IMG/VR virus record: IMGVR_UViG_3300014819_000027
Coordinates: 1 to 37,554 of that record
Source: a virus
Reading direction: 5' to 3' (one strand)
Length of the DNA: 37,554 nt
Shown here: in pieces, positions 2,815 through 34,476 of the stretch
How positions within the stretch are numbered: position 1 is the first letter of the stretch
How the letters are laid out: each line of letters starts with the position of its first letter
Translations under genes and position numbers: made by a program
The notes under the pieces: generated by a model
Told to the model about the DNA's origin: nothing
Database searches by the model: none
The model's input: only the letters and a program-made list of their open reading frames with translations

Positions 2815-2826
2815 ACTTAGTTTTAA

Positions 2827-13554: not shown

Positions 13555-13991
13555 TAACTCACCTCTGTGCGTCCGTTTCCAATATCCCTACTACGAATAA
13601 TTCTTAAGTCACGATTTGTTGGATCAGCTTGTTGCTGTTCATATATTTCTAATGCTATATTTCTGCATACAGTTTGAAACCAACGGTCTACTATTTGTGC
13701 ATCTGTATCTTCTTGTTTTATTTTGTAGCCTGCTTTAGTTAGATTAATAATAAATTTATCGTTCCAATCAAGTTCAAAACTACCATTGTTTATATTATTT
13801 TGATCTAATTCAACATTAAGTATTGCAATATAAGGCTCACCATTTGCAGTGGCTTGTTCTTTTGGAGATAGTTTTATTTCAGGAGGTTTCTGTTTTTGTT
13901 GTCTTGTTTTTTTAGGATGAGCCTCGCTCGGAGGCTCAGGTCGTGACCCTACATCGTTCAATCCTAAAAACTTTTTGAGTTTATCAAACAT
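13554..13991 (-). CDS. Conserved T4-like phage hypothetical protein (145 aa)
   Basis: A 145-residue protein. MFDKLKKFLGLNDVG is an amphipathic N-terminus, residues 15-50 are Pro/Lys-rich and disordered, and the core has YIAILNVELDQNN, SFELDWNDKFIINLTKAGYK and IVDRWFQTVCRNIALE. I recognise this core (GxFELDWN...Y..G..IVDxWFxxVCRN) from unnamed proteins of marine T4-like phages. It overlaps the UvsE end by eight bases. Function unknown. Confidence 0.83.
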   Translation of the reverse strand: MFDKLKKFLGLNDVGSRPEPPSEAHPKKTRQQKQKPPEIKLSPKEQATANGEPYIAILNVELDQNNINNGSFELDWNDKFIINLTKAGYKIKQEDTDAQIVDRWFQTVCRNIALEIYEQQQADPTNRDLRIIRSRDIGNGRTEVS

Positions 13992-20067: not shown

Positions 20068-20249
20068 TACCAACTTTCAACATCAGTAATATCAACTTTA
20101 ACAAAGCTTGGATTAAATTCTAATGTTGTTGTTGGGCCTATACCAGACGTACTTTCTTCATGTATTTTTACATAGTCAATTGTATCATACATTTCAAACA
20201 CCTCTTTAATTTTTTCGTATTGATTTCTAGTGATTATATATGTTTTCAT
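20067..20249 (-). CDS. Conserved small phage protein (60 aa)
   Basis: A 60-residue protein starting MKTYIITRNQYEKIKEVFEM and ending VDITDVESW, with an SGIGPTTTLEF turn. I recall similar small unnamed proteins in aquatic phages. I start at ATG 20249 because it forms TAATG with the queE stop and GGGGAA lies five bases upstream; ATG 20261 inside queE has no such signal. Function unknown. Confidence 0.78.
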   Translation of the reverse strand: MKTYIITRNQYEKIKEVFEMYDTIDYVKIHEESTSGIGPTTTLEFNPSFVKVDITDVESW

Positions 20250-21088
20250 TATGTTCCCCATTCGTTTTTAAATAGTGGTACTTGTAGTCTGTCACTATAA
20301 CGCCAACCTCGTTTCATAGCTGCTAATGCCACATTCTTTGCGTTTAAATTATATACACTATCAACACCACCGACAGGCATAATATAAGTGGGACCAACAA
20401 ATCCTGCGTTTCTGAATTCTCTGTCTGCTTTTTCGGCATCTCCAATATCTTCTTCAGTTGCTACTACAAATTTTAAATATGTATAGCCAACTTCTTGATA
20501 TTGACATACTATATCTGGATTGATTGCTTCATCCCACTTTTCACCACTGTTTGGTAACTTTGCACTTACACTAAATGTTACGTCACCATTTCTTTTTCTT
20601 GACCAATCTTTCAGATAATCATAAAATTCAGCAGATAACTTTTGCGTACCATTAGTTTCAAATGTAATATCGTGTAGATGATCCATAAAGTCATGGTTCA
20701 GTAAATCAGGATAGCTACGCTGCCATCCTAATAACGGTTCACCACCTGTGATAACCAAATGCTCACCTTGCCAATAACCTGTAGGCAATAAATCAAGAAT
20801 TTTAACAGCAATACTATCGGTATTGAGAACAGGACTAAGATTTTTAAACCTAGGATCCCAGCTAGCATAACTGTCACATCCAGTGCTAACCAACGGGAGG
20901 GTTTTGTAGTCGGTGTATTTTTCCGCCTGTATTTCGTTACGCTCATTGCTAGTTTGTCCTCGTGGCATACCAAACCCACCACATGTAAAATTACATCCAA
21001 ATACACGAAGGAAGACACTAGGAACTCCCATATATCTTCCTTCCCCTTGTATTGAATAAAATAATTCACTTACTTTTAATTGCGACAT
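20249..21088 (-). CDS. queE: 7-carboxy-7-deazaguanine synthase (QueE, radical SAM), variant
   Basis: A 279-residue QueE that would convert 6-carboxytetrahydropterin to 7-carboxy-7-deazaguanine. LFYSIQGEGRYMGVPSVFLR opens the family. The cluster Cys residues are Cys32 and Cys36 (GCNFTC) and probably Cys71 in GCDSYASWD, so the usual CX3CX2C is stretched to CX3CX34C. ITGGEPLLGWQ is the SAM-binding GGEP motif, followed by FETNGTQ and TFSVSAKLPNSGE. Start 21088 has GAGGAAAT upstream; the longer frame lies within the oxidoreductase gene. It overlaps that gene by 13 bases. Part of the deazaguanine pathway with FolE, QueD and DpdA. Confidence 0.9.
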   Translation of the reverse strand: MSQLKVSELFYSIQGEGRYMGVPSVFLRVFGCNFTCGGFGMPRGQTSNERNEIQAEKYTDYKTLPLVSTGCDSYASWDPRFKNLSPVLNTDSIAVKILDLLPTGYWQGEHLVITGGEPLLGWQRSYPDLLNHDFMDHLHDITFETNGTQKLSAEFYDYLKDWSRKRNGDVTFSVSAKLPNSGEKWDEAINPDIVCQYQEVGYTYLKFVVATEEDIGDAEKADREFRNAGFVGPTYIMPVGGVDSVYNLNAKNVALAAMKRGWRYSDRLQVPLFKNEWGT

Positions 21089-22263
21089 ATTTCCTCTATT
21101 AATAATTTTGCTGTGTATGGAGCTAATGTCCATCCTAAATGACCATGACCTACATGATAGTATACATTTTCTTTATGTTTACTTCTAGTGTATACGGGCA
21201 TCATATTTGGGGTCATTGGGCGTAAACATGCCCAACTACTATACTCATCACAAACTACATTTGGAAAGTTTTTGTGAACCCAATTTAATAAAGGCTTGAT
21301 ACGGTCATTGCGTATATCATAATTTTCGCCATCAAACTCAGCAGTGCCTGCGATTCTTAATCTATTACCCAACAAACTTGTAACCACTTTTGATTCTTCA
21401 TCAAGTAAACTAGTTTTTGGTGCGCTATTATAACTAGTTTCGTTTTTAATTGGTATTGTTATACTGTATCCCTTTACTGGATAAACATTAAGTTTGTCCC
21501 CTATAGTCTTAGCAACCTTTGTAGCACCAATACCGTTAGCTATAATGACTTTATTATATTGGCGTAACTCGTTAATATGCTTTAATTTATAATTATATAC
21601 AAATCTTACACTATATTGGTCTACTAATAATTTACTAAGTTCTATACAAAACTTATGTATGTCACCAGTCCAATCATCTTCCGTCCATACTCCCCCTATT
21701 AAACCATCATAATATCTTAAAGTAGGTTCTAAATTAATTACCTCATTTTTATCCAATAACTTATATTGACAACCTTCTGATGTATACAATTCACTAGCGT
21801 CTTTAGCGGCATGGTAATATTTTAAATTTTTATATATATGTAAAATACCAGATTTACTTTGGTCAAAATTTAAGTTATGCTCTGACATAATGGTTTGATA
21901 TAGCTTTCTTGCTTCCAAACCCATGCGTATTGTTTTTGCTGTGTTTTTTGCGTACTCGTTTTTTGCTGTGTGATACAAAAACTTAGCAAGCCAAATCGCT
22001 TTATCAATATCTAAACTTGGTCTAATAAGCAAAGGGGCATCTTTTTTGAGCATCCATTTAATGCCTTTATAGACGTTAGCCCAAGTATTCCATACTTCGC
22101 TATTACTTACACTAACTTGTCCTCCATTTGCGTAACTACAACGCATAGCAGGATAGTTTTCTTGTTCAAATAAAGTTACATCAAAACCTTTTTTAGCAGC
22201 ATAGTAGGCAGCTGTAATACCTGCTATGCCTGCTCCTAATATTCCTATCGTATCTTTAGCCAT
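21076..22263 (-). CDS. FAD-dependent D-amino-acid dehydrogenase-like oxidoreductase
   Basis: A 395-residue DadA/glycine-oxidase-type flavoenzyme. The N-terminal GILGAGIAGITAAYYAAKKG is a classic dinucleotide-binding GxGxxG; YANGGQVSVSNSEVW and the C-terminal GHGHLGWTLAPYTAKLL match DadA. Length is near the family's usual 400-430. It oxidises an amine or amino acid C-N bond in known homologs. It sits between the MazG-like gene (eight-base overlap) and queE (13-base overlap), so it is expressed with deazaguanine synthesis. The substrate is unknown: free amino acid or a modified base side chain are both possible. Confidence 0.88.
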   Translation of the reverse strand: MAKDTIGILGAGIAGITAAYYAAKKGFDVTLFEQENYPAMRCSYANGGQVSVSNSEVWNTWANVYKGIKWMLKKDAPLLIRPSLDIDKAIWLAKFLYHTAKNEYAKNTAKTIRMGLEARKLYQTIMSEHNLNFDQSKSGILHIYKNLKYYHAAKDASELYTSEGCQYKLLDKNEVINLEPTLRYYDGLIGGVWTEDDWTGDIHKFCIELSKLLVDQYSVRFVYNYKLKHINELRQYNKVIIANGIGATKVAKTIGDKLNVYPVKGYSITIPIKNETSYNSAPKTSLLDEESKVVTSLLGNRLRIAGTAEFDGENYDIRNDRIKPLLNWVHKNFPNVVCDEYSSWACLRPMTPNMMPVYTRSKHKENVYYHVGHGHLGWTLAPYTAKLLIEEICRN

Positions 22264-22627
22264 GTTTTACAAATTGTTTGAGTTGAGGAGGTTGCCATCC
22301 ATCTGGTTTAAGTATTTTACCATCTTCACGGCGTTTAACTTTTCCTGTAACAGGATCAACTTTTGCGAAATTTGTACGCATCACTTCGTCCCATGCTGCT
22401 TCTCCATCTACTCCTAAACTATGTAATGCCCCTGCTGTGACAACTAAAATGTCAATCAGGGCATCTAATTGTTCAGTTCTATCATTAATTTGTATAGCAT
22501 GAATTAATTCACTTACTTCTTCCCCAATTAATGACTTGTATAAATTAAATTGATCAGGATTATATGTATCAACTGTTTGACCGCAAGCAGTCATAAACTG
22601 CTTTTGGTCTGATAAAACTTTATTCAT
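22256..22627 (-). CDS. MazG-like nucleotide pyrophosphohydrolase
   Basis: A 123-residue all-alpha NTP pyrophosphohydrolase of the MazG/HisE-like group. SLIGEEVSELIHAI gives the ExxE metal motif and EQLDALIDILVVTAGA the ExxD motif. The C-terminal VDPVTGKVKRREDGKILKPD loop is typical of phage members. It would cut nucleoside triphosphates to monophosphates, so it may shape the nucleotide pool or alarmone level. It overlaps the transporter and the oxidoreductase by eight bases each. The preferred substrate cannot be told. Confidence 0.88.
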   Translation of the reverse strand: MNKVLSDQKQFMTACGQTVDTYNPDQFNLYKSLIGEEVSELIHAIQINDRTEQLDALIDILVVTAGALHSLGVDGEAAWDEVMRTNFAKVDPVTGKVKRREDGKILKPDGWQPPQLKQFVKHG

Positions 22628-23243
22628 TAACTTCCTCTTTTTTCATTTTATTTTGTAAATAATTTAATAGAATACCATACGCAGGAAGAATAACTAGTAA
22701 GCTTACAATAATTTTACTGATACTATTATTTGTAGCTACGATATGCCAATTCTTACTCATAAACTCATCAGCTCCACCAGCAAATGCTACACCAAAGAAT
22801 GTGTAGGTATCGATAAATGTACTAGCAATACTACTTAATGTTGGAGCAATCCACCATGTTTGATATTTTTCTCTAAAGTACTGAAAAACATAAACATCAA
22901 GTAAGTTACTAACAAAGTAAGCCATTCCACTGCCTAATCCAATTCTAAAAGCAACGCTATCAGGAGCACCGCCTAATTTTACAACTGCCATACTAACGAT
23001 TACAGCAGGAATAAATGCTAAAGCAATAACTGCTCTACCCGTTTCTTTCCCTAATAATCTTACTGTTAAATCAGTTAACACTACTACTAATGGGAATGTA
23101 AAAGCTGCCCAAGCTAATGGGGCACCAAAAACTGTAAACTTAAATTGTACAATATAATTGCTAATAGCAATAATTAAAATATGCGCCAATATTAGTTTAT
23201 ATGCTAATGATCTATCTACACCCTCTAAGATTTTGTTTATCAT
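22620..23243 (-). CDS. yhhQ: Queuosine precursor transporter (YhhQ/VUT family)
   Basis: A 207-residue integral inner-membrane protein with about six hydrophobic segments. FTFPLVVVLTDLTVRLLGKE is the family hallmark, and LGSGMAYFVSNLLDVYVFQY and SIASTFIDTYTFFGVAF fit the YhhQ family, which imports 7-deazaguanine precursors such as preQ0. AAGGAG lies directly before ATG 23243. It follows queD by 13 bases. In the phage it could feed the DNA-modification pathway from outside the cell, bypassing missing steps such as QueC. That use is inferred. Confidence 0.9.
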   Translation of the reverse strand: MINKILEGVDRSLAYKLILAHILIIAISNYIVQFKFTVFGAPLAWAAFTFPLVVVLTDLTVRLLGKETGRAVIALAFIPAVIVSMAVVKLGGAPDSVAFRIGLGSGMAYFVSNLLDVYVFQYFREKYQTWWIAPTLSSIASTFIDTYTFFGVAFAGGADEFMSKNWHIVATNNSISKIIVSLLVILPAYGILLNYLQNKMKKEEVNE

Positions 23244-23256
23244 TTTTTATCTCCTT

Positions 23257-23727
23257 TTAAACAAACTCATTGTCAGACCTACTTCCAACACGCATTGCCA
23301 TGTTAGCATCAGTCTCTCTTACTTCCACTTTACAACACCATACTCTTTCATCATACCCATAATCTTTTAACCAACAAGTATTAATGTATTCATATAACCA
23401 ATCAGCAATACCTTCACATCCTGTTCGTTCGACCATTGTAATTTTTGCTAATCCCAGTTTTCCTAATCTTAATAATTCATTTTTCTTAGGATCATCTTCG
23501 GCTACTAGAAGCGTATGATCAAACCATTCTTCCAATAATCCTTTTAAGGGTTTTAGACTACCAAAGTCTACTACCCAGTTTCTAGCATCAAGTGTATCAC
23601 TTTCAAATTCAAAATGAAAACTTAATGCGTATCCATGTATCAAGTTACAATGACTATCAGCACGCCATTGACGGTATGCTACTGGACCTATTTGTTTATA
23701 TGTTTTTGTACTAATAAATTTTGCCAC
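23257..23727 (-). CDS. queD: 6-carboxytetrahydropterin synthase-like (QueD)
   Basis: A 156-residue T-fold enzyme of the QueD/6-pyruvoyl-tetrahydropterin synthase family. The zinc region is ADSHCNLIHGYALSF: His26 and His31 are visible, but the third ligand of the usual HGH is Tyr33; Cys27 is a candidate catalytic Cys. VVDFGSLKPLK, FDHTLLVAEDDP (His71) and VEVRETDAN (Glu137 for pterin binding) complete the set. I recall this HGYALSF subtype from marine bacteria. It starts at GTG 23727 after GGAGG; no ATG fits. It would use the FolE product and supply QueE. Confidence 0.88.
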   Translation of the reverse strand: MAKFISTKTYKQIGPVAYRQWRADSHCNLIHGYALSFHFEFESDTLDARNWVVDFGSLKPLKGLLEEWFDHTLLVAEDDPKKNELLRLGKLGLAKITMVERTGCEGIADWLYEYINTCWLKDYGYDERVWCCKVEVRETDANMAMRVGSRSDNEFV

Positions 23728-23802
23728 CTCTTGCCTCCTTTAGCTGAGTAAGTTTGATGACATGCAGAATATTTAAAGTGGGATGAATGCCTTAGACCAC
23801 TG

Positions 23803-24423
23803 TTATTTTAAAGAATTTATTATTTTTTTTGTTAAAGTATATATTTGGTAATAATTTTCTACTTTAACACTTTTAGTATATGTTTTTGTAAAAAAATTCA
23901 AGTCCTCATAAAATAAATCTTCATTAAATGAATAATCAAAATTGTCACAAGAATCATTGTATTTTTTTACCATATTAACTGTAAATTTTAACAATCCATA
24001 CCTAATTGGAATAGCGTCTGGTTCTTTATTTGGATTCCAATCTTTTTTTAATATAGCTATATAAGCACTTATACATTGTTCAACTAAATTTCGTCTCCTT
24101 ATTCTAACTACATAAAAATTATTTGACTTAAACTTGTTAAAAACGTAATTTTTAAGGTACTGCCAATAATTTATAATATCATAGGCGTGTGCTTTTACTA
24201 TAAGATTTTTATTTTGAAACTGACTTGTGAATTCTTGTACTGTATAAATATCAGATTTAATTATTAGATTATCTATATATTCCTTAGTTGTGGGAAGGAT
24301 TACTTTTGGTTCGTTTAAAATAGTTATGCTGTCAGTATTTGGTGTCAATCTTTCATAATATTCCCATAATAACGCAGTAGATCCAGATCGCATAGTAGAT
24401 ATAATAGCAATAGGTAATTTCAT
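23803..24423 (-). CDS. PAPS-dependent sulfotransferase-like protein
   Basis: A 206-residue P-loop sulfotransferase-like protein. ISTMRSGSTALLWEYYERL at residues 8-26 is the 5'-phosphosulfate loop, and RIRRRNLVEQCISAYIA near residues 107-123 gives the Arg and Ser of the 3'-phosphate site. It lies 30 bases downstream of an adenylylsulfate kinase fusion that could make its donor PAPS. The upstream CATAAATATA resembles a late promoter. The acceptor is unknown: glycan, protein or base. Confidence 0.82.
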   Translation of the reverse strand: MKLPIAIISTMRSGSTALLWEYYERLTPNTDSITILNEPKVILPTTKEYIDNLIIKSDIYTVQEFTSQFQNKNLIVKAHAYDIINYWQYLKNYVFNKFKSNNFYVVRIRRRNLVEQCISAYIAILKKDWNPNKEPDAIPIRYGLLKFTVNMVKKYNDSCDNFDYSFNEDLFYEDLNFFTKTYTKSVKVENYYQIYTLTKKIINSLK

Positions 24424-24437
24424 TTTTTCTGTGTGTA

Positions 24438-24447
24438 TATATTTATG
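24438..24447 (-). promoter_or_regulatory. Candidate T4-type late promoter
   Basis: CATAAATATA on the minus strand, identical to the element before the second fibre gene at 2827-2836, lies 14 bases before the sulfotransferase ATG. It could give this gene extra late expression. Confidence 0.35.
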
Positions 24448-24453
24448 AAATTC

Positions 24454-25296
24454 CTATTTTAGACCCATTTGTTTTCGTATATTTGTAGCACTTATACTAG
24501 TAATTGATTCGTCAAATGTTTCTTCTCCACTTGTATATCCTACTCCTCGTCCCCAACCAATGTGTACAATATTTGGAACTAACATAATTTCATATTGACC
24601 TTGATACAATGGATCTAAATCACGTTTTATATAATTTTTAACTTCTTCAACACTAAACGGGTTACTATTTTGCCATCCTTGTACATCACGTATTTGTATT
24701 ATAACTTGTCCTGTCTTACTTAGTAAGCGTTCAAACAATGCACGGTGACCAAGATGCCATGGTTGCCAGCGACCTAGCATTTGTACTGTTTCTTTACGCC
24801 AATCAAAGATTGGTCTACGTTTTTTGTTAAGAATCATTTCACCAACATAAGGTACCCAACGTTCACAATTTTGTTCATTAATTCGAAAATCATAAATGTC
24901 AGGGGGTACAAATGCTTTGTTTGTATCCTCATACCGACCTTTATCAATGGTATCCATCCATATGGTCCAATCAGCTTTAAAATTATGTCTCATTTCGGGT
25001 AAAGGAGCAACAAAATCACAAATTACATATTCCCCATCACAACGAATTGCGAATTCTGCCATACGCAAACTTTGACGAATTCTGCCCTCTTTACTAAAGT
25101 CCCAATCATTAAATTTTTTACGTATATCATCTGCATTAAACCAATCTACTTTTACGTTAAGGATTGGATAAGGGCGATCCGAATTAATTTTTGATAAAGA
25201 CTTTTCTCCATTTATCTCTAAATATTTTTTTAAACGTTCTGCAAAATATGTTTTACCTGAACCTGGTAATCCCATTATTAATATTTTCTCTGTCAT
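24454..25296 (-). CDS. Adenylylsulfate kinase-like / nucleotidyltransferase fusion
   Basis: A 280-residue two-domain protein. Residues 1-160 are a P-loop kinase (GLPGSGKT at 9-16, then FNADDIRKKFNDWDFS, RMAEFA and DFVAPLPEMR) resembling CysC adenylylsulfate kinases. Residues 170-280 are an HxGH nucleotidyltransferase (LGRWQPWHLGHRALFERLL, HLGH at 181-184; SISATNIR near the end). Fusions like this are annotated in cyanophages. With the sulfotransferase next door, PAPS synthesis is plausible; NMN adenylyl transfer is an alternative for the second domain. It overlaps the upstream gene by an ATGA. Confidence 0.85.
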   Translation of the reverse strand: MTEKILIMGLPGSGKTYFAERLKKYLEINGEKSLSKINSDRPYPILNVKVDWFNADDIRKKFNDWDFSKEGRIRQSLRMAEFAIRCDGEYVICDFVAPLPEMRHNFKADWTIWMDTIDKGRYEDTNKAFVPPDIYDFRINEQNCERWVPYVGEMILNKKRRPIFDWRKETVQMLGRWQPWHLGHRALFERLLSKTGQVIIQIRDVQGWQNSNPFSVEEVKNYIKRDLDPLYQGQYEIMLVPNIVHIGWGRGVGYTSGEETFDESITSISATNIRKQMGLK

Positions 25297-25526
25297 TTTT
25301 TAAGTAACTCCCATACTCTTTTTTGCATCATTTCCTCTACCCACTCATCTTCACCTGCAAATTTAGGCGCTTTACTAAAATAATCATCCATTATCCACTT
25401 AAGCTTATATAAGTCTTTTTTAATTTCAAATTGAGTAAAACCATCATTGTACTTACTATTGGTTTCATACATAGCTTGAAAAATAATGTCTGTTGCTTCT
25501 TGCAATTCAGGTTTTTTATATCCCAT
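25293..25526 (-). CDS. Small hypothetical protein (77 aa)
   Basis: A 77-residue acidic helical protein beginning MGYKKPELQEATDIIFQAMY, with DLYKLKWIMDDYFSKAP and a C-terminal MMQKRVWELLKK. I start at ATG 25526 (GGGAA upstream) rather than at TTG 25556. It overlaps the zinc-ribbon-like gene by 11 bases and the kinase fusion by four. Function unknown. Confidence 0.72.
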   Translation of the reverse strand: MGYKKPELQEATDIIFQAMYETNSKYNDGFTQFEIKKDLYKLKWIMDDYFSKAPKFAGEDEWVEEMMQKRVWELLKK

Positions 25527-25683
25527 AATTATTCCCAGTACTATAAAATAGTACAACTGCTACAAATAAAATTATTAACCATAATGGATAAGGATTTGTT
25601 ATTAAAGGCCTATGATGTGGACATCTACCCTGATTATAATCACAATTAGTACTATACTCTTTTTTACAAATACTACAACTCAT
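25516..25683 (-). CDS. Cys4-type small membrane protein coupled to folE (55 aa)
   Basis: A 55-residue protein: four Cys and two His in the first 24 residues (MSCSICKKEY, then CDYNQGRCPHH), followed by a single transmembrane helix (WLIILFVAVVLFY). The CxxC...CX6C spacing suggests a zinc ribbon anchored in the inner membrane. Its ATG overlaps the folE TGA as ATGA, strong evidence for translation. Function unknown. Confidence 0.7.
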   Translation of the reverse strand: MSCSICKKEYSTNCDYNQGRCPHHRPLITNPYPLWLIILFVAVVLFYSTGNNYGI

Positions 25684-26366
25684 TTAGATGAACTCCTTGC
25701 AATACTGTAAAATTCATTACGCACAGCAACATCACTTTTAAATCCACCACCCAAACGACTGGTTACAGTGGAACTACCTGTATCTTCTACACCTCTGCTT
25801 TTTACACAGTAATGTTGTGCATCAATCATTACTGCTACATCTTCTGTATCAAGGATATATTGTAATGTATGAAAAATTTGTTCTGTTAAACGTTCTTGAA
25901 TTTGAGGGCGTTTACTAAAATACTCCACAATTCTGTTGATTTTGCTAAGACCCAATACTCTATCCTTAGGTACATATGCAACAGTAGCAAGACCGTCAAT
26001 AATAACACCATGATGTTCACAATTGCTCTGAACTGATACATTTCTTTCCACTACCATTTCATTATACTGCATTTTATTATTTACAGTTGTACATTTTGGA
26101 AAATTTTCTTCTTTTAATCCAAAATATATTTCATTTATGTACATTTTTGCCATTCTATTCGGTGTTTCTTTTAAACTATCATCATTTAAATCCATTCCAA
26201 CAGTTTTCCAAATTGTTGTAAATGCTTCTTCTAAGATATCTATTTTCTTTTTATTTTCTACTGCCAATAATTGTTCGTTTATTGGTGTTTCGACACCCAT
26301 TTTTATTAAATATTCTCTAACTTGTTTTCCTAGTACCGGACTACATTTTGTTTTATCAAAACTCAT
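25680..26366 (-). CDS. folE: GTP cyclohydrolase I (FolE)
   Basis: A 228-residue GTP cyclohydrolase I, which turns GTP into dihydroneopterin triphosphate, the first step of 7-deazaguanine synthesis. QSNCEHHGVIIDG (Cys116, His119), GLSKINRIVEYFSKRPQIQE, TEQI and HYCVKSRGVED (Cys187) supply zinc and substrate sites; all key residues are present. Length matches the family. AAGGAG precedes ATG 26366. It is followed by the Cys4 membrane protein with an ATGA overlap. A folate role is possible, but QueD, QueE and DpdA in the same block favour DNA modification. Confidence 0.95.
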   Translation of the reverse strand: MSFDKTKCSPVLGKQVREYLIKMGVETPINEQLLAVENKKKIDILEEAFTTIWKTVGMDLNDDSLKETPNRMAKMYINEIYFGLKEENFPKCTTVNNKMQYNEMVVERNVSVQSNCEHHGVIIDGLATVAYVPKDRVLGLSKINRIVEYFSKRPQIQERLTEQIFHTLQYILDTEDVAVMIDAQHYCVKSRGVEDTGSSTVTSRLGGGFKSDVAVRNEFYSIARSSSK

Positions 26367-26381
26367 TTTGTTTCTCCTTAC

Positions 26382-27221
26382 TCAAATTTGTTTATGATTT
26401 ATATATGTTGGTTTTGTCATATTCCAAACAAGACCATATTGATATTTTTTGTCAGTATTTTTTGAAATATCAGATTCATTTCTATATTTTCCTTTTAACT
26501 CACCTTCAAAAATAATTCTTTTTTTAGTTGGACGAGTTATTCTACCATATGCTACATTATAGTTTAACCTAATAAATTCTTCAATTTCATTTGGGAATAA
26601 AAATTTTTCTTGACCGTTTATTATACACCATTTTTTCCCTGTTACCGCAGACTTACCAAACATACCATTTCTTGATCCGTTCCTAGCCATTTGTTTTTTT
26701 GATCCTGAACGAAAGTTTATAGTAGATGTATTAATTATATTTTCTTTACCGTATAGCAACTCTAACCCTTCGAGTTCACAATCTTTAATAATAAAATGTT
26801 CACCTAATAAATAATTATAAATTGTAATTGTATTTTGTCTAGGATTTTTATAACTGTTTTTTTTATGTTTTTTAAGATTATTAGAAACCCAGTTGGTTGT
26901 TCTAATATTAGTTAGACCATATTTTTCTTTAAGTTCTATTAATAATTGTATCTCTAATGATAATGCTTCAGATTCGTTTAAATTGTCAGCAATTTTTAAA
27001 ATATATGGATTTAACCCTTTTGATTGTAACAAGCGAATGGTATTAAGTTTATGTGAATTTTTATATTTACGACTGGGTCTAGCTTCTTTTAAATGATCAT
27101 AAAGCCGATTTCCAGTCCCCTTTCCTATATAAAAAGGTTTATATAAAAAAGACATTTTAGTTGAACTGAAATTACCTATTTCTAAAGGGTTTAAATAAAC
27201 ATAGACATAATATTGTGACAT
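26382..27221 (-). CDS. GIY-YIG homing endonuclease with NUMOD3 motif
   Basis: A 279-residue free-standing endonuclease. The N-terminal YYVYVYLNP and KPFYIGKGTGNRLYDHL form a GIY-YIG variant with Arg in the helix; NESEALSLEIQLL gives the catalytic Glu. RNGSRNGMFGKSAVTGKKW is a NUMOD3 DNA-binding motif. Codon use is even more AT-rich than its neighbours. It sits between folE and a 63-residue gene, with a hairpin just upstream (27261-27281), which suggests later insertion. It probably spreads this locus to related phages. Confidence 0.88.
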   Translation of the reverse strand: MSQYYVYVYLNPLEIGNFSSTKMSFLYKPFYIGKGTGNRLYDHLKEARPSRKYKNSHKLNTIRLLQSKGLNPYILKIADNLNESEALSLEIQLLIELKEKYGLTNIRTTNWVSNNLKKHKKNSYKNPRQNTITIYNYLLGEHFIIKDCELEGLELLYGKENIINTSTINFRSGSKKQMARNGSRNGMFGKSAVTGKKWCIINGQEKFLFPNEIEEFIRLNYNVAYGRITRPTKKRIIFEGELKGKYRNESDISKNTDKKYQYGLVWNMTKPTYINHKQI

Positions 27222-27260
27222 ATAAGTTTCCTCACTCCTTATATTATAAATTTAAGAAAT

Positions 27261-27281
27261 CAGAATCAATCTTATTCTGAC
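27261..27281 (-). terminator. Weak hairpin, possible terminator
   Basis: TCAGAAT and ATTCTGA pair around a seven-base loop, followed on the minus strand by TTTCTT. It lies between the 63-residue gene and the GIY-YIG gene, in an 87-base gap. GATAAATAT just before it resembles a late promoter. Confidence 0.45.
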
Positions 27282-27308
27282 ACAATATTTATCTTATTTT
27301 AAATTTTT

Positions 27309-27500
27309 TTATTCTTTCTTGTTGTTTTTTATGGGCTTTTCTTCTACTACTTGGGTAGAACCTGACTTTACTAATGCTGCTGCTTCTTGTACTTGTGTAG
27401 CAATTACAGCCCAATTAATTTCGTATTGCTGTATTTCAACAGAACTTTCTACTATAGGGGGTTTAGTTAATACTTCTTTCTTTGTACGTTTAGTTGCCAT
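27309..27500 (-). CDS. Small hypothetical protein (63 aa)
   Basis: A 63-residue protein, basic at both ends (MATKRTKKEVLTKPP; KPIKNNKKE) with a central helix (YEINWAVIATQVQEAAALVK). GAGGAAATT precedes ATG 27500. It follows guaC by seven bases. Function unknown; nucleic-acid contact is possible from charge alone. Confidence 0.7.
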   Translation of the reverse strand: MATKRTKKEVLTKPPIVESSVEIQQYEINWAVIATQVQEAAALVKSGSTQVVEEKPIKNNKKE

Positions 27501-27507
27501 AATTTCC

Positions 27508-28587
27508 TCACTTTAAAAATACATCATTTATTTGTCTATTTACTCTGATAAATGTAGTGCATTTTGGAAGTTGTTTTAAATTTATAGCACCAACATACGT
27601 ACAAGCACTACGTAATCCACCTAATATATTCAATATAGTTTCTCTAACAGGACCACGATATGGTATTTCAACTGTACGCCCTTCACTACTACGGTATTCA
27701 GCAATACCACCGTGATGCTTATCCATAGCAGTACCCGAACTCATACCATAAAACATCACATATTCTTCTGTGTCTACGTATGGCTCTCCTGTTTTATTGT
27801 CTAATTCCTTGCTTAGATAGGATTTAAATATTACATCCCCGCCACCTTCATCATGCCCTGCAAACATACCACCGAGCATAACAAAGTCTGCTCCTGCACC
27901 AAATGCTTTTGCTATGTCACCAGGACAGGTACACCCTCCATCTGCGACAATATGAGCACCAAGCCCATGAGCAGCATCAGCGCACTCAATAATAGCACTA
28001 AGCTGAGGATACCCAACGCCAGTTTGAACACGAGTTGTGCAAACGCTCCCAGGACCGATGCCCACTTTAACAATATCTGCTCCACGTAAAATTAACTCCT
28101 GTGTCATGTCTGCGGTAACAACGTTACCCGCAATAATTGTATGGGTAGGAAAAGTTTTACGAACTTTTTCAACATAATCTGCAAATTGTTCACTGTACCC
28201 ATTAGCTACATCAATACAAATAAATTTAAATTCTGTATGATTATTTAAAATTTCAATTAATCTATGAAAATCTTTTTCACTAGTACCTGTGCTTACAGCA
28301 GCATTATTTCCGAAAGCAATTTGTCCTCTTTTTTTATATTCTTCTAATGTATAACTTTTAACTAAACATGTAAACATTAGATGCTCATTTAAAGCGTTTG
28401 CCATATTAAATGTGCCAACACCATCCATGTTTGCAGCCATGAGTGGTATACCATACCATTCATGTTTGCTGTGTTTGAACTTGTATGTTCTATTTAGGTT
28501 TACAATTTTACGACTTGCAAGTGTGCTACGTTTTGGACGAATTAATACATCCTTAAAGTCTAATTTAATTTCTTCTTCTATTCTCAT
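27508..28587 (-). CDS. guaC: GMP reductase (GuaC)
   Basis: A 359-residue enzyme of the IMPDH/GMPR family. [20 protein letters not shown] carries catalytic Cys183, and [20 protein letters not shown] with [12 protein letters not shown] is the GMP-reductase version of the phosphate loop, not the IMPDH one. There are no CBS domains. It deaminates GMP to IMP with NADPH. Its start shares a base with the upstream glycosyltransferase stop (TAATG). Near folE and the dpdA-like gene, it may recycle guanine or GMP released during base exchange or host DNA breakdown; this is inference. Confidence 0.92.
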
Positions 28588-29762
28588 TAGAATTTGTTTT
28601 CCCTATTATATTTGCGATAATCTACGTCCATACGTAAGTATGGTTTACCATTACCTTCAAGTATATCACAAATTCTATCTATTGTTTTATCAGTATAATC
28701 ACTAATTTTACCCATATTTTTATGTGCATTTTCTAATAACGGAATAAGCTTTCTGATTGCATCCTCAATAGACCATGGGACATATAATCTACTATAATCG
28801 TTGGAGAAGGTTTCAGGAAAACTACGATATGCAGGGTATAAAACATTACATCCTAATGCATCAGCCTCACTTACTGTATTACTGACCCAATCTTGTAACG
28901 CACAGTTAAACACACAACGACTATCATTAACAATATTATAATAATCGTTTTTTTCTAAATCTTCATATAACTTAAGCTTACCTTCACCAACTAATTTGTA
29001 TGTGCGTTCCATATAACTTTGATTGTTTGACCGTAGCTTACTTCCACTACACACTGCAAATTCAACCTTTGGAAGTCCTTCAATATTGTGCCAAGCTTCA
29101 ATCAGGTCCATGTAAAAGTCAGGCTGTTTTTCCTGATCCCATCTCGCTGAAAAAACTACACGCATCGCCCTTTCATCAAAGGGCTTAATACTATTTACTC
29201 TATTTTGAACTTCTACTTTACCGAATGCCAATCCAGATATATTATAGATAGGACTAGTCCAACCAGCAATCTTCATATGTGCTACCATTTCTTCATTACT
29301 TGCTAGTACACCATCTACAAAACTATCTACCATTTTTTCATAATGACCCATCCATTTACTCATACCCCATACGTGTACGAAATCATCAGGATCAATACTT
29401 TGTGCAAGACAACGTACAAATATCTTAGGTCTATGATTTATTTCTACTTGATTTAATATGTAAGGTAAACTTTCTATACCAGGTTGAAACATATCCTCAA
29501 AATAAATAACGTCCTCTGAGGTTAGTTGCCCTAGTTTCATTAAACGTATTAAATTCATCAATTGACTCATGCCAAAATATGTTCTGCCATGAGCATCCAA
29601 TACTTGTCCTGTTACAATAGCTTTGTCATTGCTTAATGTTTCACCTTCAACCATATAATAGTTTATACGCCTACGCTCAAATACACTACGATTCCATTCT
29701 TGTAATTGTAATGTATAACGTGCTTTATAAGGCTCCAATCCCATATAAAATAGTTTACGCAT
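28587..29762 (-). CDS. GT-B glycosyltransferase (GT4-like)
   Basis: A 391-residue glycosyltransferase. The N-terminal half is unusual ([20 protein letters not shown]); the C-terminal domain has [20 protein letters not shown] and [19 protein letters not shown], the donor site of GT4 enzymes. I recall related proteins in cyanophages. It begins with a TAATG overlap on the 55-residue membrane gene and ends with TAATG to guaC. It may glycosylate phage DNA, capsid or a host surface glycan; the acceptor is not readable. Confidence 0.85.
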
Positions 29763-29929
29763 TAATTAACCTTTTGTGCAGTAGAACAAATCCAGCCATC
29801 TGGAGTTTTGACAACTAGTCCCTTACAATTACTAATGTACTCATCTAAATCGTGTATACCTTGTATTACTAAAACAATACCAATACAAAAAAATACTATA
29901 ATAGAACCCCAAAATACTTTATCAATCAT
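29762..29929 (-). CDS. Small single-pass membrane protein (55 aa)
   Basis: A 55-residue protein: transmembrane helix at residues 5-23 (VFWGSIIVFFCIGIVLVIQ), then a short domain with GLVVKTPDGWICSTAQKVN and two Cys. ATGA overlap with the nucleotidyltransferase-cupin gene and TAATG with the glycosyltransferase show it is a translated unit. Function unknown; probably inner membrane with the Cys-containing part outside. Confidence 0.7.
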   Translation of the reverse strand: MIDKVFWGSIIVFFCIGIVLVIQGIHDLDEYISNCKGLVVKTPDGWICSTAQKVN

Positions 29930-30714
29930 GTTTGTGTTTTTCTTTCAATATCATCTTCAATACAATGTTCACCATATTGGATTTCAATAAGTTTTAATGG
30001 TTCTGATCCATTATTACATAATTGATGCCAACGTTCGTTTGGTACAAATAAATGTTCATGTTTATTGTAAACACCTAGTTGTTCTAAATCACTTTTTGAG
30101 TTTAATGTATTAACAGTTGCCTCACCTTGACTAACAAACCAAAACTCACTTCGTTTATTATGCTTCTGCATACTTAAACTTTTACCTGGTTCTACTGTTA
30201 ATTCTTTAAGTTTTACATTAGGACCATCTTCATGTAATACACGATAATAACCCCATTGTCTATTTGTTTTGGGAGCCTTCCATTCTTGTAATATCCAACT
30301 ACTAGAATTCATTTTGTTATCGCCACCGACATTAAACCAAAACTGTAGTCTGGGATCTACAATCTCCATTTCAGGAATATTTTCTTGTGTTCTATCCCCA
30401 CCGTTAGCGAATATAATACGCTCATTATTAAATGTATTTTCTAGGCAATATTTAATTGCATTTTTAGCAGAATTATCACTGTCATCAAAAGTTATATAAC
30501 CATCTACAACACGTAATTCACTAATAATTGCAGCACGTTCTGCCAATGGCATAAATGGTCTACCTTTTTTCCTAGCTAACCATTCATCACTATTTAGGCC
30601 AACAACTAATTGATGTCCTAATTCTTTTGCTGCTTTAAAGTAAGCAATATGACCACTATGAATAGGGTCAAATCCACCTGTAACTAATACAACTGTGTAT
30701 TGATTATTTTCCAT
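29926..30714 (-). CDS. Nucleotidyltransferase-cupin (mannose-6-P isomerase-like) fusion
   Basis: A 262-residue fusion. Residues 1-140 are a cytidylyltransferase-like domain (VTGGFDPIHSGHIAYFKAAK with the HxGH motif; GLNSDEWLARKKGRP; FANGGDR), close to the RfaE/HldE group. Residues 150-262 are a ManC-type cupin: RQWGYYRVLHEDGPNVKLKE, the GKSLSMQKHNKRSEFWFVSQ metal site, and IEIQYGEHCIEDDIER. Together they suggest nucleotide-sugar production. It overlaps the 30704-30907 gene by 11 bases. Similar fusions occur in cyanophages. Exact sugar unknown. Confidence 0.87.
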   Translation of the reverse strand: MENNQYTVVLVTGGFDPIHSGHIAYFKAAKELGHQLVVGLNSDEWLARKKGRPFMPLAERAAIISELRVVDGYITFDDSDNSAKNAIKYCLENTFNNERIIFANGGDRTQENIPEMEIVDPRLQFWFNVGGDNKMNSSSWILQEWKAPKTNRQWGYYRVLHEDGPNVKLKELTVEPGKSLSMQKHNKRSEFWFVSQGEATVNTLNSKSDLEQLGVYNKHEHLFVPNERWHQLCNNGSEPLKLIEIQYGEHCIEDDIERKTQT

Positions 30715-30907
30715 CTGCTTCCCACATATTTTTTACTTGTTTCCCTGTAATGTATTTTTGATAATTTCTATAAGAATTACTTTTATCTTTATATAAGTCT
30801 TTTTCGTCGTATACATACCCATACGACCTACAAAATTCTAAATATTTTTCTAGATCATCAAAAATTTTATTATAATGACTATTTACTTTAAATGATGGTT
30901 TACCCAT
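30704..30907 (-). CDS. Small hypothetical protein (67 aa)
   Basis: A 67-residue basic, aromatic-rich helical protein (YNKIFDDLEKYLEFCRSYGY; KSNSYRNYQKYITGKQVKNM). AAGGAAAAA precedes ATG 30907. It overlaps the downstream fusion gene by 11 bases. I recall similar unnamed T4-like phage proteins with the LexYLxFCrxYGYxYdEkdLY pattern. Function unknown. Confidence 0.75.
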   Translation of the reverse strand: MGKPSFKVNSHYNKIFDDLEKYLEFCRSYGYVYDEKDLYKDKSNSYRNYQKYITGKQVKNMWEADGK

Positions 30908-30915
30908 GTTTTTCC

Positions 30916-31374
30916 TTAAATTTTAATACTTAAATGTGGTTTAGTTGTGTTGTAATAAATCGTGGCGCCATTCTCGCCATCTTCACTAACAGTGATATGA
31001 ACATCACGTTCTGGATAACGATTAGCAATTGTAACGTATAAGTCATCGCTAATCATTTCGCAGCTTTTAAAATCTAACGACAATATACCTTGGTCGCCAG
31101 AATATAATCGTTCAAGCCAACGTTTGAATTGTATAAATTCAATGTCTCTATCGTTGTGAAATACTTCAATACCAACGGTAAAGTGAAAAATATGCCTATG
31201 AGGGTAACCCAAAAACGAAACGTCATATTCATCTCCTGTTTTCAGCTTAGGATCTTCACTAGCTGCTGGGTATTTATGAATACCTTCTTTGCGGAAAGTT
31301 ACCCAAATCATACGTTTGGCTTCTTGCTTAATACGATTAATTTTATCTTGTAACATTATTTGTCTTTGATCCAT
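30916..31374 (-). CDS. Conserved phage protein, possible QueD-like T-fold
   Basis: A 152-residue protein that I recall as a widely conserved unnamed phage protein (RMIWVTFRKEGIHKYPAA; VSFLGYPHRHIFHFTVGIEV; IEFIQFKRWLERL). Its order parallels the 6-pyruvoyl-tetrahydropterin synthase fold: His33, then His59-x-His61 as in HGH, then an LDF in place of LDH, and Glu131 in TVSEDGENGA where QueD has its pterin-binding Glu. The catalytic Cys is not evident. T-fold membership is my inference. AGGAATT precedes ATG 31374; one base separates it from the gene before. Confidence 0.7.
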   Translation of the reverse strand: MDQRQIMLQDKINRIKQEAKRMIWVTFRKEGIHKYPAASEDPKLKTGDEYDVSFLGYPHRHIFHFTVGIEVFHNDRDIEFIQFKRWLERLYSGDQGILSLDFKSCEMISDDLYVTIANRYPERDVHITVSEDGENGATIYYNTTKPHLSIKI

Positions 31375-31375
31375 T

Positions 31376-31570
31376 TTAATAATTCCTGGTAAGTATAGCC
31401 CATGTTAACCATTGATGAAAGGCTTCATATACATTTTCTGCTTCTTTTTCATCTTGCTTAAGTTTAACACCTCGAACGTAAAACCCATCTCTTGTTATAC
31501 GTAGCATTTCTGTATCTTCAGCAAAAAATTTTAAATTTGAATTATCTATCGTCGAGGTTGATTCTATCAT
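31376..31570 (-). CDS. Conserved small phage protein (64 aa)
   Basis: A 64-residue protein, MIESTSTIDNSNLKFFAEDT then EMLRITRDGFYVRGVKLKQD. The LRITxDGFYVRG...DEKEAExVYxAF pattern is one I know from unnamed T4-like phage proteins. I start at ATG 31570 (GGGAAG upstream) rather than at 31669, which lies inside the DUF465-like gene. It overlaps that gene by 29 bases. Function unknown. Confidence 0.78.
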   Translation of the reverse strand: MIESTSTIDNSNLKFFAEDTEMLRITRDGFYVRGVKLKQDEKEAENVYEAFHQWLTWAILTRNY

Positions 31571-31748
31571 GATCTTCTTCCCATTGCAACCTATGTAATC
31601 TTGAAAGTTCGTCTTTAAACATAAGTTTTCGCCTTTTGAGTTCGTTAATACGCATTTTATCTGCGCCAATCATTTCTAAATGTTTTACTTGGTCATCTAA
31701 CACACGATGGGTTTCTGTTAATTTACGTATTTGTTCACGATATGGCAT
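31542..31748 (-). CDS. YdcH/DUF465-like helical hairpin protein
   Basis: A 68-residue basic, all-helical protein (MPYREQIRKLTETHRVLDDQ; INELKRRKLMFKDELSRLHR), matching the two-helix hairpin pattern of the YdcH (DUF465) family. GGGGA lies before ATG 31748, two bases after the dpdA-like stop. The family has no known reaction; such proteins are small and possibly nucleic-acid or protein binding. Confidence 0.75.
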   Translation of the reverse strand: MPYREQIRKLTETHRVLDDQVKHLEMIGADKMRINELKRRKLMFKDELSRLHRLQWEEDHDRINLDDR

Positions 31749-31750
31749 GA

Positions 31751-33286
31751 TTATTCCCCTAACATTTCAGATATTAATTCATCACTGTCAATACTATCTT
31801 CATCAACATATTGTTCATCACTTACTTCAAATAACTCATCAAACATTGTACTTGCATTTACTGTTTTCTTACCACTAAACCCTTGACTGCCTGACTTCAT
31901 TTGTGTCCAAAATCTATCGTACTTATCAAGTAATGCTAAACTTTTCTTTCTATCTTTTAAACTAAAAATGTCATCAACTAAACTACCGAAATCTTTTGTA
32001 TCAAATTGGCTTAACACCATACTTGGTTTAATACCCGAATCATACTGTCTATTGCCTTCTTGTACGGCTACAATATGTTGATAAACATTATGTGCCTGTA
32101 ACAACGTATAACTCAATGTATCCCAACTGGTTTTAGTTTCTTTTCCATGTGCTCCAATAAACCCTTGCCCTCTGTAACACAAATCACGAACCATCATTCT
32201 ATCAGTAACAGGGCTATCTGTAAACAACTTATGGATACCATCTTGCAATACAGCGTCCCGAAACTTGCGACTATCATTAGCATAGCTTTTCTTTTCAGCA
32301 GTTTTCTCCATGCTGTATGCCCATTTCTTGTTATGTTGAATATTAGTGTAGAAATAAGCAAGACCTTTAGCAGCACTAAAAAATGGGCTAGCACAGTCAA
32401 AAGTAATTTGTAATTTTGGATTATGATATTTGCGTATTGCTCTTTGAATATCACTAAACAATACAGCATATTCTAAAATGCTTGTACCCAAACAATGTAT
32501 AAGGTCGTGTTTGCCTTCTTCAAGCAGACCATCGTGAATAATATTCACCATACGCTTTAATGTAAGATGTATGTCAATTTTCGTCTGTCCACCAAAAGCC
32601 CAACCATTAAAATGGTTTTTAGGATAAACTTTTGGGTCACAGTACTTCTTCATTTCATCGTACCAATCATCAGATTGTTTATGATTCAACCCTTGTAGTA
32701 CGTTGAGAAATTTACATTCGCCATTACGATGTTGGATAAAATACTCATTATTGATATGTGTAGCCCTAACTGCTTCTTCAATTGTGGATATGCCATGTTT
32801 ATCTAACAAGTGTTTATTGCGTAGTGTTTGAGTTGGAACATCTAAACACATACCATAGTCCATGTATGTGTCCATCCAATTTAACACCTTTTGTCGTTGT
32901 TTCATAGCTTTGGGACAGTTTATATCTTTCCAATCAGCAGGCCATTGACCTTTCATAATCTGAAAGCCACCACTATCACCTAACAAGAAAGTACCCTTCT
33001 CACGTTTTCTTATAATGCTTTCAGCATTATCAACAACATTAGTATCAAGATTGGCATGACCAGCACTATATAATCCCCATTTGTATGTAAACAATCCTTG
33101 TTTACTGTTAAGAAAATTTAAACATTCAACATCATTATTAAAACCAATTGGTATACGTGCTGGGTCAAAATACTGTTCACCCTCACGTTGTTTGCCCAAT
33201 CCACTAATATAAAAACTACTAATAGCAGGTAAAAACAATGCCCATTCAGGATTATGTTTACTTGAAAGATTGTCTTGTTTCAGCAT
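31751..33286 (-). CDS. dpdA: DpdA-like 7-deazaguanine DNA transglycosylase (TGT family)
   Basis: A 511-residue protein of the tRNA-guanine transglycosylase superfamily. LLGDSGGFQIMKG (Asp104) is the base-binding motif; QITFDCASPFF (Asp297) matches the FDCVxPTR nucleophile of TGT; WAFGGQTK and HCLGTSILEYA fit the barrel. The zinc site is degenerate: Cys370 and His399 are visible but no CxCxxC. Phage and genomic-island DpdA proteins exchange guanine in DNA for 7-deazaguanines. In this window FolE, QueD, QueE and YhhQ can supply the base. It lies nine bases from 33296-33667. DNA rather than tRNA is inferred from family and context. Confidence 0.88.
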   Translation of the reverse strand: MLKQDNLSSKHNPEWALFLPAISSFYISGLGKQREGEQYFDPARIPIGFNNDVECLNFLNSKQGLFTYKWGLYSAGHANLDTNVVDNAESIIRKREKGTFLLGDSGGFQIMKGQWPADWKDINCPKAMKQRQKVLNWMDTYMDYGMCLDVPTQTLRNKHLLDKHGISTIEEAVRATHINNEYFIQHRNGECKFLNVLQGLNHKQSDDWYDEMKKYCDPKVYPKNHFNGWAFGGQTKIDIHLTLKRMVNIIHDGLLEEGKHDLIHCLGTSILEYAVLFSDIQRAIRKYHNPKLQITFDCASPFFSAAKGLAYFYTNIQHNKKWAYSMEKTAEKKSYANDSRKFRDAVLQDGIHKLFTDSPVTDRMMVRDLCYRGQGFIGAHGKETKTSWDTLSYTLLQAHNVYQHIVAVQEGNRQYDSGIKPSMVLSQFDTKDFGSLVDDIFSLKDRKKSLALLDKYDRFWTQMKSGSQGFSGKKTVNASTMFDELFEVSDEQYVDEDSIDSDELISEMLGE

Positions 33287-33295: not shown

Positions 33296-33667
33296 TTATA
33301 CCTTACAAACATTACATTCATTTTGGATTAATGTTTTTACCATTGTTATTTTTTTGTCAATATCATTGCGTTGATTGATTAAGTCTTTAATTGTTGGATT
33401 ATTTTCTGCTTCTTTCTTTAAATATTCTTCTTCAGCACGTTTGGCTTTAGCCCAATTAATCAAAATTTTTGTATCATTATCTAGTTCAATTTGGGTATAA
33501 TTGCCTGTTACGCTAAGCCAAGATGACCCATCATAAACTTCAAAGGTTTGGTTATTACCATTATACCGAACTATACCTGCACTAGGATTACTCATATTTA
33601 CATATGGATATGAACTATTCCCTCCCGCCACAGTCATTCCTGAACCACCTATAATATTCTTAATCAT
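33296..33667 (-). CDS. Conserved T4-like phage hypothetical protein (123 aa)
   Basis: A 123-residue protein. The N-terminal 55 residues (MIKNIIGGSGMTVAGGNSSY, then GIVRYNGNNQTFEVYDGSSW) resemble the small beta domain found in phage fibres. The C-terminal half is a charged helix (NWAKAKRAEEEYLKKEAENN) with CNVC at the end. I recall similar unnamed marine T4-like proteins near the clamp gene. It overlaps the clamp by an ATGA. Function unknown; a head-fibre role would be surprising here. Confidence 0.78.
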   Translation of the reverse strand: MIKNIIGGSGMTVAGGNSSYPYVNMSNPSAGIVRYNGNNQTFEVYDGSSWLSVTGNYTQIELDNDTKILINWAKAKRAEEEYLKKEAENNPTIKDLINQRNDIDKKITMVKTLIQNECNVCKV

Positions 33668-34395: not shown

Positions 34396-34439
34396 TTTTT
34401 CCCTTTATTTAAAATTATATTTAGGCATTTATAGTGTGT

Positions 34440-34468
34440 ATAATAATGGATTTTATTACACAAGTCAA
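34440..34468 (-). promoter_or_regulatory. Sigma70-type promoter before the clamp gene
   Basis: TTGACT (34468-34463), 17 bases, TATTAT (34445-34440) on the minus strand in the 81-base gap between polymerase and clamp. CTATAAATG just downstream also resembles a T4-type late promoter. Confidence 0.7.
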
Positions 34469-34476
34469 CTATCAAT

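Follow-up and report, generated by a model that had tools for sequence, protein, structure and literature searches.

Introduction

The question raised by the locus described here is how a phage that encodes the enzymes for making 7-carboxy-7-deazaguanine (CDG) and a DpdA-like transglycosylase, but no QueC, could complete a pathway that replaces guanine in its DNA with a 7-deazaguanine base. The locus lies in a complete 37,554-bp IMG/VR fragment of a T4-like phage (record IMGVR_UViG_3300014819_000027), which is referred to below as the window. Phage 7-deazaguanine (Dpd) DNA modification is known in Enterobacteria phage 9g, in CAjan and in Vibrio phage nt-1 (Hutinet 2019, PMC6884629). An original prediction, made from the letters of the window, placed FolE, QueD, QueE, a YhhQ-type transporter, a DpdA-like protein, GuaC and MazG together on one strand in a single overlapping block, and read them as such a pathway in which QueC is not seen. 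All seven genes are indeed present on the minus strand, as judged by matches to profile libraries and, for the DpdA-like protein, by its tRNA-guanine transglycosylase (TGT) fold.

The answer proposed in the present work, to which a probability of about 0.6 is attached, is a QueC-less 7-deazaguanine DNA-modification system in which a paralog with the QueD fold would process CDG, a DpdA held by the replication clamp would insert the resulting base, and a glycosyltransferase dedicated to the system would probably add a sugar to it. The paralog and the glycosyltransferase, both of which had been missed, occur more regularly than any of the accessory genes, and they change the predicted end product.

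CDG-forming enzymes and the absence of QueC

The window encodes FolE, QueD and QueE, as do the phage 7-deazaguanine DNA-modification systems. FolE, GTP cyclohydrolase I (25680..26366, minus strand), matches TIGR00063 and PRK09347, in both cases over the cut-off. QueD, the 6-carboxytetrahydropterin (CPH4) synthase (23257..23727, minus strand), is identified by the 6-pyruvoyltetrahydropterin synthase (PTPS) family PF01242 (E 1e-15), by the PHROG QueD family and by alignment, and has the catalytic residues C27, D70 and H71. QueE, the radical S-adenosylmethionine CDG synthase (20249..21133, minus strand), matches the QueE-like PHROG 2076 (E 3e-52); two of its cysteines form a CX3C motif (C47, C51) and the third, C86, lies beyond an insertion. 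In addition to the paralog described below, the PA5oct-type phage PAC2 has a pair of QueD-like proteins whose genes are separated by only a few others (L086:4538-5056 and L086:6833-7303).

Since the window is a 37.5-kb fragment, the absence of QueC from it would by itself prove nothing, and it is the relatives that settle the point. A search with PF06508 found no QueC, beyond short weak matches to PP-loop proteins, in the window, in the IMG/VR records of 33 relatives (up to 400 kb long), or in eleven genomes of isolates with the paralog, and none in the records of the PA5oct type (286 kb) and of Phosso (469 kb), which are complete. Vibrio phage 2.275.O, 9g, nt-1 and CAjan give strong QueC matches in the same search (E 1e-51 to 1e-76). 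The weak matches in X1, D479 and several contigs, which cover about 50-106 of the 210 positions at E 1e-3 to 1e-9, were read as other PP-loop ATPases. The module is thus a real QueC-less type, and the QueC that marks the preQ0-type subgroup (preQ0 being 7-cyano-7-deazaguanine) is absent from it. The pathway without QueC that had been predicted is supported by these results.

A QueD-fold paralog in the place of QueC

A second protein (30916..31374, minus strand), recognised as a QueD-fold paralog by its predicted structure, its invariant residues and profile comparison, is probably a CDG-processing enzyme and a candidate CDG decarboxylase. It belongs to PHROG 17812, which occurs in at least 599 viral stretches, and it is found in 26 of 50,697 phage records, which represent eleven lineages. 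In ten of the eleven it is at most a few genes away from FolE, and in the PA5oct-type phages it adjoins the glycosyltransferase, DpdA and QueE. Its sequence is 60-71% identical between the window and the PA5oct-type phages or Phosso, while DpdA is only 27-36% identical. Scans of viral contigs with single queries (the phiST paralog and the PA5oct DpdA), which used strict back-translated patterns, returned no relatives. The protein is longer in two phages, Bakedbeans of Vibrio and MA9V-3 of Chryseobacterium (L094:11245-12396, L092:11482-12363), where an additional N-terminal region precedes the paralog.

The predicted structure of the paralog (predicted local distance difference test score, pLDDT, 88.8) has the beta-beta-alpha-alpha-beta-beta order of PTPS and QueD, and Foldseek retrieves QueD and PTPS structures with probability 1.00 (best E 2e-4; top matches 2dj6 and 4ntk). 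At the sequence level the relationship is distant: the best match in a search of PDB sequence profiles is a weak one to PTPS (E 0.25), and comparison with the profile of phage QueD gives E 6e-5 and a probability of 66% over the C-terminal part. The invariant residues are H33, H59xH61, H73, R76, E79, S104-C105-E106 and E131, so that the three-histidine site and two ligand-type glutamates are retained. The paralog shares the fold, the histidine-rich site and these two glutamates with E. coli QueD (PDB 4ntk), but the alignments show no counterpart of the catalytic Cys27 or of the Asp70-His71 pair, which are invariant in true phage QueDs; it is therefore not a CPH4 synthase, and a true QueD is encoded as well.

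The paralog and QueC are mutually exclusive. None of the eleven lineages that carry the paralog has a full-length QueC, the four QueC-bearing phages (9g, nt-1, CAjan and Vibrio 2.275.O) lack it, and it was not found in HVTV-1 or CP220 either. Since the QueC-bearing phages tested do not have it, and since it lacks the catalytic residues of QueD, the paralog is read as taking the place of QueC, and it probably acts on CDG. Reportedly, deoxyribonucleosides of CDG and of 7-deazaguanine (dCDG and dDG) have been found as phage bases, and a CDG decarboxylase, DpdL, is said to have been predicted for the phages with the 7-deazaguanine base. Because of that reported prediction, the best guess for the reaction is the decarboxylation of CDG to 7-deazaguanine. 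The paralog may be DpdL itself, and may thus already have been named by Cui et al. 2023.

Two other accounts of this step can be weighed here. The first is that host QueC completes the pathway, or that YhhQ imports preQ0, and that DpdA inserts preQ0 as in phages of the CAjan type. A YhhQ/QPTR-type transporter of 7-deazaguanine precursors is encoded in the window (22620..23243, minus strand; TIGR00697, over the cut-off), QueC is present in many hosts, and a YhhQ/VUT-like gene (PF02592, below the cut-off) lies between DpdA and the paralog on an Aurantimonas contig (L231:7390-7914). The transporter occurs, however, in just 4 of 206 related loci, and this account would leave both the phage's own FolE-QueD-QueE set and the paralog without explanation; with the mutual exclusion of paralog and QueC also against it, it is considered unlikely. 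The second is that the paralog sequesters or destroys CDG in order to blunt host defences that use it, CDG being the conjugated base in the type IV cyclic-oligonucleotide-based antiphage signalling system (CBASS) and in Qat (PMC13329287). The paralog probably does bind a CDG-like ligand, but the phage itself makes CDG through FolE, QueD and QueE, and the paralog stays beside DpdA and the glycosyltransferase even on bacterial contigs; a role in counter-defence is accordingly considered very unlikely.

The DpdA-like transglycosylase and its clamp-type tail

The DpdA-like protein (511 residues; 31751..33286, minus strand) has no match among the Pfam, PHROG, NCBIfam or PDB sequence models, and was identified through its structure. 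An AlphaFold model built from 24 natural sequences (mean pLDDT 86.6; predicted template modelling score 0.85) was compared with the PDB by Foldseek, and the 14 best matches are all TGTs (E 1.4e-7 to 1.6e-4), after which the scores fall. The motifs DSGGFQ (D104), CLDVPT (D149), GWAFGG (228) and FDCAS (D297) fall at the acid/base, substrate-binding, GG and nucleophile positions of TGT, and D104, D149 and D297 are invariant throughout the family.

Comparison of the fold with that of TGTs acting on tRNA had been put forward as a means of telling a DNA enzyme from a tRNA enzyme. The top matches are indeed TGTs, but the comparison does not discriminate, because DpdA and TGT share the fold; the differences lie in the loss of the TGT zinc cysteines and in the gain of a clamp-type tail. 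The possibility that the protein is a tRNA enzyme which raises queuosine in host tRNA draws on these same best PDB matches. Against it, the protein has no PF01702 match and no CxCxxC zinc motif past D297 (the only cysteines beyond that residue are at 298 and 370), so that the PF01702 domain and CxCxxC...H zinc site of bacterial TGTs are both missing, and its tail and its synteny with clamp and polymerase point elsewhere; a tRNA role is extremely improbable.

The tail carries a clamp-binding-like motif of the F[DN]xLF type, FDELF, at residues 482-486 near the C-terminus (31829..31843, minus strand). The family B DNA polymerase of the window (34477..37185, minus strand; PF00136, PF03104) has a C-terminal FDELF at 895-899, and the two tails read ...TMFDELF... 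in DpdA and ...TTFDELFTFG in the polymerase. In polymerases of the T4 family, a comparable peptide at the C-terminus mediates binding to the clamp. Such a motif occurs among the 70 C-terminal residues in 146 of 189 DpdA and 135 of 180 polymerase open reading frames (ORFs), against a background of 20 in 1407 unnamed ORFs (1.4%) and 2.6% of shuffled DpdA tails, and its frequency is near zero in FolE, QueD, QueE, the glycosyltransferase and the paralog. The gene immediately upstream of DpdA encodes a gp45-like sliding clamp (33664..34395, minus strand); the window protein has no match in Pfam, and its homologue in phage PAC2 is annotated as proliferating cell nuclear antigen. Because DpdA has a polymerase-like clamp tail and lies beside the clamp gene, DNA rather than tRNA is favoured as its target, and DpdA may be tethered to the clamp and act on newly made DNA.

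A profile of the family matches the PA5oct-type, Phosso and Vibrio 2.275.O genomes and nothing in 9g, nt-1, CAjan, CP220, HVTV-1 or Bipper, and on these grounds it is set apart as a subfamily from the DpdA proteins of 9g and nt-1. Pairwise alignment with the 9g DpdA is not meaningful, and no sequence relation to DpdA1 (the 9g type) or DpdA2 (the nt-1 type) was found; DpdA3 and DpdA4 are presumably those of Campylobacter phages and archaeal viruses, which CP220 and HVTV-1 represented in the search. ACP17, X1 and BUCT-ZZ01 have an nt-1-like DpdA in place of the window type, with tails that read TLDELFE, SLEELFG and SLDSFFD respectively. The DpdA1 of phage 9g (L215:3007-3960) ends in LQDLFDE, which is also clamp-tail-like, and tethering to the clamp may be general among phage DpdA proteins.

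A dedicated glycosyltransferase

The glycosyltransferase of the system (28587..29762, minus strand) is a divergent GT4-type enzyme. Its match to Glycos_transf_1 (E 5e-4) is below the curated cut-off, and its placement derives from motifs of the R..K and D/E-x7-E types (R207..K212, D291-x7-E299, E317) and from its relation to GT4 structures, the nearest solved sequence being the mannosyltransferase WbaZ-1 (PDB 2f9f, E 2e-4).

What sets this enzyme apart is its linkage. A tblastn search found it in 4 of 50,697 phage records (ACP17 twice, X1 and BUCT-ZZ01), always no more than one gene from the paralog; a profile adds the PA5oct-type phages and Phosso, where it again lies beside the paralog, and each isolate genome has one strong full-length copy. 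The profile finds none in the QueC-type phages and none in six phages that have the paralog alone. Among 80 viral contigs found through the glycosyltransferase alone, 75 hold the paralog, and all 35 that are fully flanked hold the paralog, DpdA and QueE. In the reverse direction, 177 of the 206 paralog loci hold the glycosyltransferase and 183 hold DpdA within flanks of at most 8-10 kb. The distance correlation between paralog and glycosyltransferase is 0.71, that of the two with the clamp 0.56 and 0.58, and that of DpdA with the clamp 0.81, all of these values being inflated by linkage and only suggestive.

The association extends beyond phages. The glycosyltransferase, the paralog and DpdA lie side by side, with no polymerase or clamp, on contigs of Magnetospirillum spp. 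(up to 1.4 Mb; loci L233-L236 and L242), Aurantimonas (L231) and Methylobacterium (L238). QueD is nearby in the Magnetospirillum loci, and a tyrosine integrase is encoded no more than about 5 kb from the trio in the two loci read in detail, those of Magnetospirillum aberrantis (L234) and Aurantimonas. These bacterial loci look like mobile islands.

Because of its exclusive linkage, the glycosyltransferase probably transfers a sugar to the inserted base. The resulting picture, in which a three-gene core of DpdA, paralog and GT4 enzyme gives rise to glycosylated 7-deazaguanine in the DNA of a large group of T4-like and jumbo phages from aquatic settings, as well as in that of some genomic islands of Alphaproteobacteria, is put forward tentatively, at a little short of even odds.

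Its closest competitor, which is possible though somewhat doubtful, dispenses with the sugar: the paralog would give 7-deazaguanine, or CDG would stay as it is, DpdA would insert the base, and the glycosyltransferase would act on another base, on a protein or on the host envelope. The lineages with the paralog alone and the reported occurrence of dCDG and dDG fit this account, and sugar genes are common in T4-like phages. It accords less well with a glycosyltransferase family which at tblastn sensitivity is seen in no other phage records, is single-copy, is never more than one gene from the paralog, and holds the same position on bacterial contigs. Decoration of hydroxymethyl-pyrimidines, in particular, was rejected as a general explanation, though not for each phage: the thymidylate synthase/dCMP hydroxymethylase family (PF00303) is present in 6 of the 13 glycosyltransferase carriers tested and absent from the other 7 (one of them a 130-kb fragment), which include ACP17, X1, BUCT-ZZ01 and three contigs of 340-400 kb, so that a hydroxymethyl-pyrimidine made by that route is not the acceptor there.

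Proposed mechanism

The preferred reading, glycosylation included, can be set out as four steps. FolE, QueD and QueE would convert GTP to CDG, a step that is well founded by homology. The paralog, in the stead of QueC, would then turn CDG into a processed base, most likely 7-deazaguanine through loss of the carboxyl group. DpdA, held at the fork through its clamp-binding tail, would exchange guanine in new DNA for this base. Finally, the GT4 enzyme, supplied by the nearby sugar-nucleotide genes, would probably glycosylate the base once it is in place. Sequence, fold and synteny show the enzymes themselves, the missing QueC, the linkage of DpdA, paralog and glycosyltransferase, and the clamp-like tail, and it is from these that the action on DNA, the reaction of the paralog and the sugar transfer are inferred.

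Several considerations weigh against this scheme. The chemistry is its weakest joint: 7-deazaguanine has no obvious oxygen or nitrogen to serve as a sugar handle, and in the absence of a heteroatom at C7 the enzyme would have to make a C-glycoside, or the product of the paralog would have to be a different one, or the sugar would be placed on the carboxylate of CDG. The existence of six phage lineages with the paralog and no glycosyltransferase implies that the function of the paralog cannot depend on glycosylation. Host QueC or imported preQ0 could serve DpdA, and linkage seen as synteny can include hitchhiking. Several of the relatives among the IMG/VR records are fragments, and the argument from the absence of QueC is carried by the isolate genomes.

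Gene layout and accessory genes

From PolB, the minus-strand order is clamp, DpdA, small ORFs, paralog, nucleotidyltransferase-cupin and GT4 enzyme, followed by GuaC, a GIY-YIG endonuclease, FolE, a kinase-nucleotidyltransferase, QueD, YhhQ, MazG, a DAO-family enzyme and QueE, and then by a second glycosyltransferase and an epimerase. About 200 further viral loci show this order, so chance does not account for the block. Its description as one overlapping block holds for most neighbouring genes, which touch or overlap each other; at a few places, though, 75-163 bp separate them, and the GIY-YIG gene interrupts the block. Its limits, which had been drawn at 20249-33286, are too narrow, since the unit starts upstream at PolB and the clamp (33664-37185) and continues to about 17733.

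The membership of YhhQ, MazG and GuaC in the core of the pathway is not supported. Frequencies counted in the 206 related loci, which depend on flank length, are 4 for YhhQ, 3 for MazG (a MazG-like nucleotide pyrophosphohydrolase; 22256..22627, minus strand; PRA-PH, E 2e-12), 32 for GuaC (guanosine monophosphate reductase; 27508..28587, minus strand; TIGR01305, over the cut-off) and 3 for the DAO-family flavin-dependent oxidoreductase, which resembles D-amino-acid dehydrogenase (21076..22263, minus strand; 58-bp overlap with QueE). All four were set aside as accessory on account of these low frequencies, and a near-identical contig (L001) lacks GuaC, YhhQ and the DAO-family gene. The DAO flavoenzyme is possibly a base-tailoring oxidase or simple metabolic cargo. 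In PAC2, in BUCT-ZZ01 and on one 329-kb contig, the module includes purine phosphoribosyltransferases, and together with GuaC they may return the guanine released by base exchange to the nucleotide pool, which would fit heavy substitution.

Among the remaining genes, a nucleotidyltransferase joined to a cupin (29926..30714, minus strand; PF01467, PF01050; 77 of 206 loci) probably supplies sugar-nucleotide. The unit also contains a fused P-loop kinase and nucleotidyltransferase resembling nicotinamide mononucleotide adenylyltransferase (24454..25296; 19 of 206), a second glycosyltransferase (18554..19882, minus strand), whose homologue adjoins FolE in Synechococcus phage BUCT-ZZ01, and an NAD-dependent sugar epimerase (17733..18557, minus strand; PF01370; family relatives in 47 of 206). 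The GIY-YIG protein, a LEM-3-like homing endonuclease (26382..27221), lies between FolE and the GuaC region and is found in 1 of 80 relatives. A 67-residue ORF between the paralog and the glycosyltransferase (30704-30907) is kept in 182 of the 206 related viral loci and was not found in isolates. Elsewhere the window holds a UvdE-type UV-damage endonuclease gene (13984-15006) and, at 1-4682, structural proteins with collagen-like GxQG repeats around an ORF (1219-2814) that encodes a subtilisin-like serine protease. Scanning of the window for Rfam families and for tRNAs gave no matches.

Relation to known systems and significance

Like the systems of 9g, CAjan and nt-1, the present one combines FolE, QueD and QueE with a DNA transglycosylase of the TGT fold, and in 9g, too, the genes for clamp, DpdA and FolE follow one another directly. 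Unlike those systems, all of which have QueC, it lacks QueC and adds the QueD-fold paralog and a dedicated glycosyltransferase. A QueC-less pathway that ends in CDG or 7-deazaguanine is itself said to have been described, in the dCDG and dDG phages with DpdL. Phage 7-deazaguanine DNA modification, its QueC-less forms and dCDG and dDG are already known; new, within what was checked, are a paralog that excludes QueC as a core component, a glycosyltransferase dedicated to the module, the presence of a clamp-type tail on DpdA and the occurrence of the trio on bacterial contigs.

The Pseudomonas jumbo phage PA5oct, which is listed with a deazaguanine system in a review (PMC7824862), has the same cluster of clamp, DpdA, glycosyltransferase, paralog and QueE, with FolE, QueD and MazG elsewhere and no QueC; the review's passage on this phage names deazaguanine synthesis and incorporation, and does not name the paralog or the linkage to the glycosyltransferase. 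The logic of installing a base and then decorating it is shared with the glucosyltransferases that act on hydroxymethylcytosine in T4 and with CmoX/CmoY hypermodification on a carboxyl handle (PMC12783734). The system differs from both in that its first step would be base exchange to 7-deazaguanine, and in its glycosyltransferase, which is of the GT4 type and nearest to WbaZ-1. No description of glycosylated 7-deazaguanine in DNA was found in the limited library of literature searched.

The known hypermodified bases of phages are mostly pyrimidines built on hydroxymethyl handles. If the proposal is correct, a guanine analogue that bears a sugar and is put in after synthesis would put a bulky group on the purine side, and would provide a broad shield against restriction and perhaps against CRISPR nucleases. 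The carriers Paride/PA5oct, ACP17, X1, Phosso and BUCT-ZZ01 exist as isolates, so the prediction is testable. The proposal gives a candidate role to an unnamed family, PHROG 17812, and would explain how phages without QueC could complete the pathway; it also points to a coupling of base exchange with the replication clamp.

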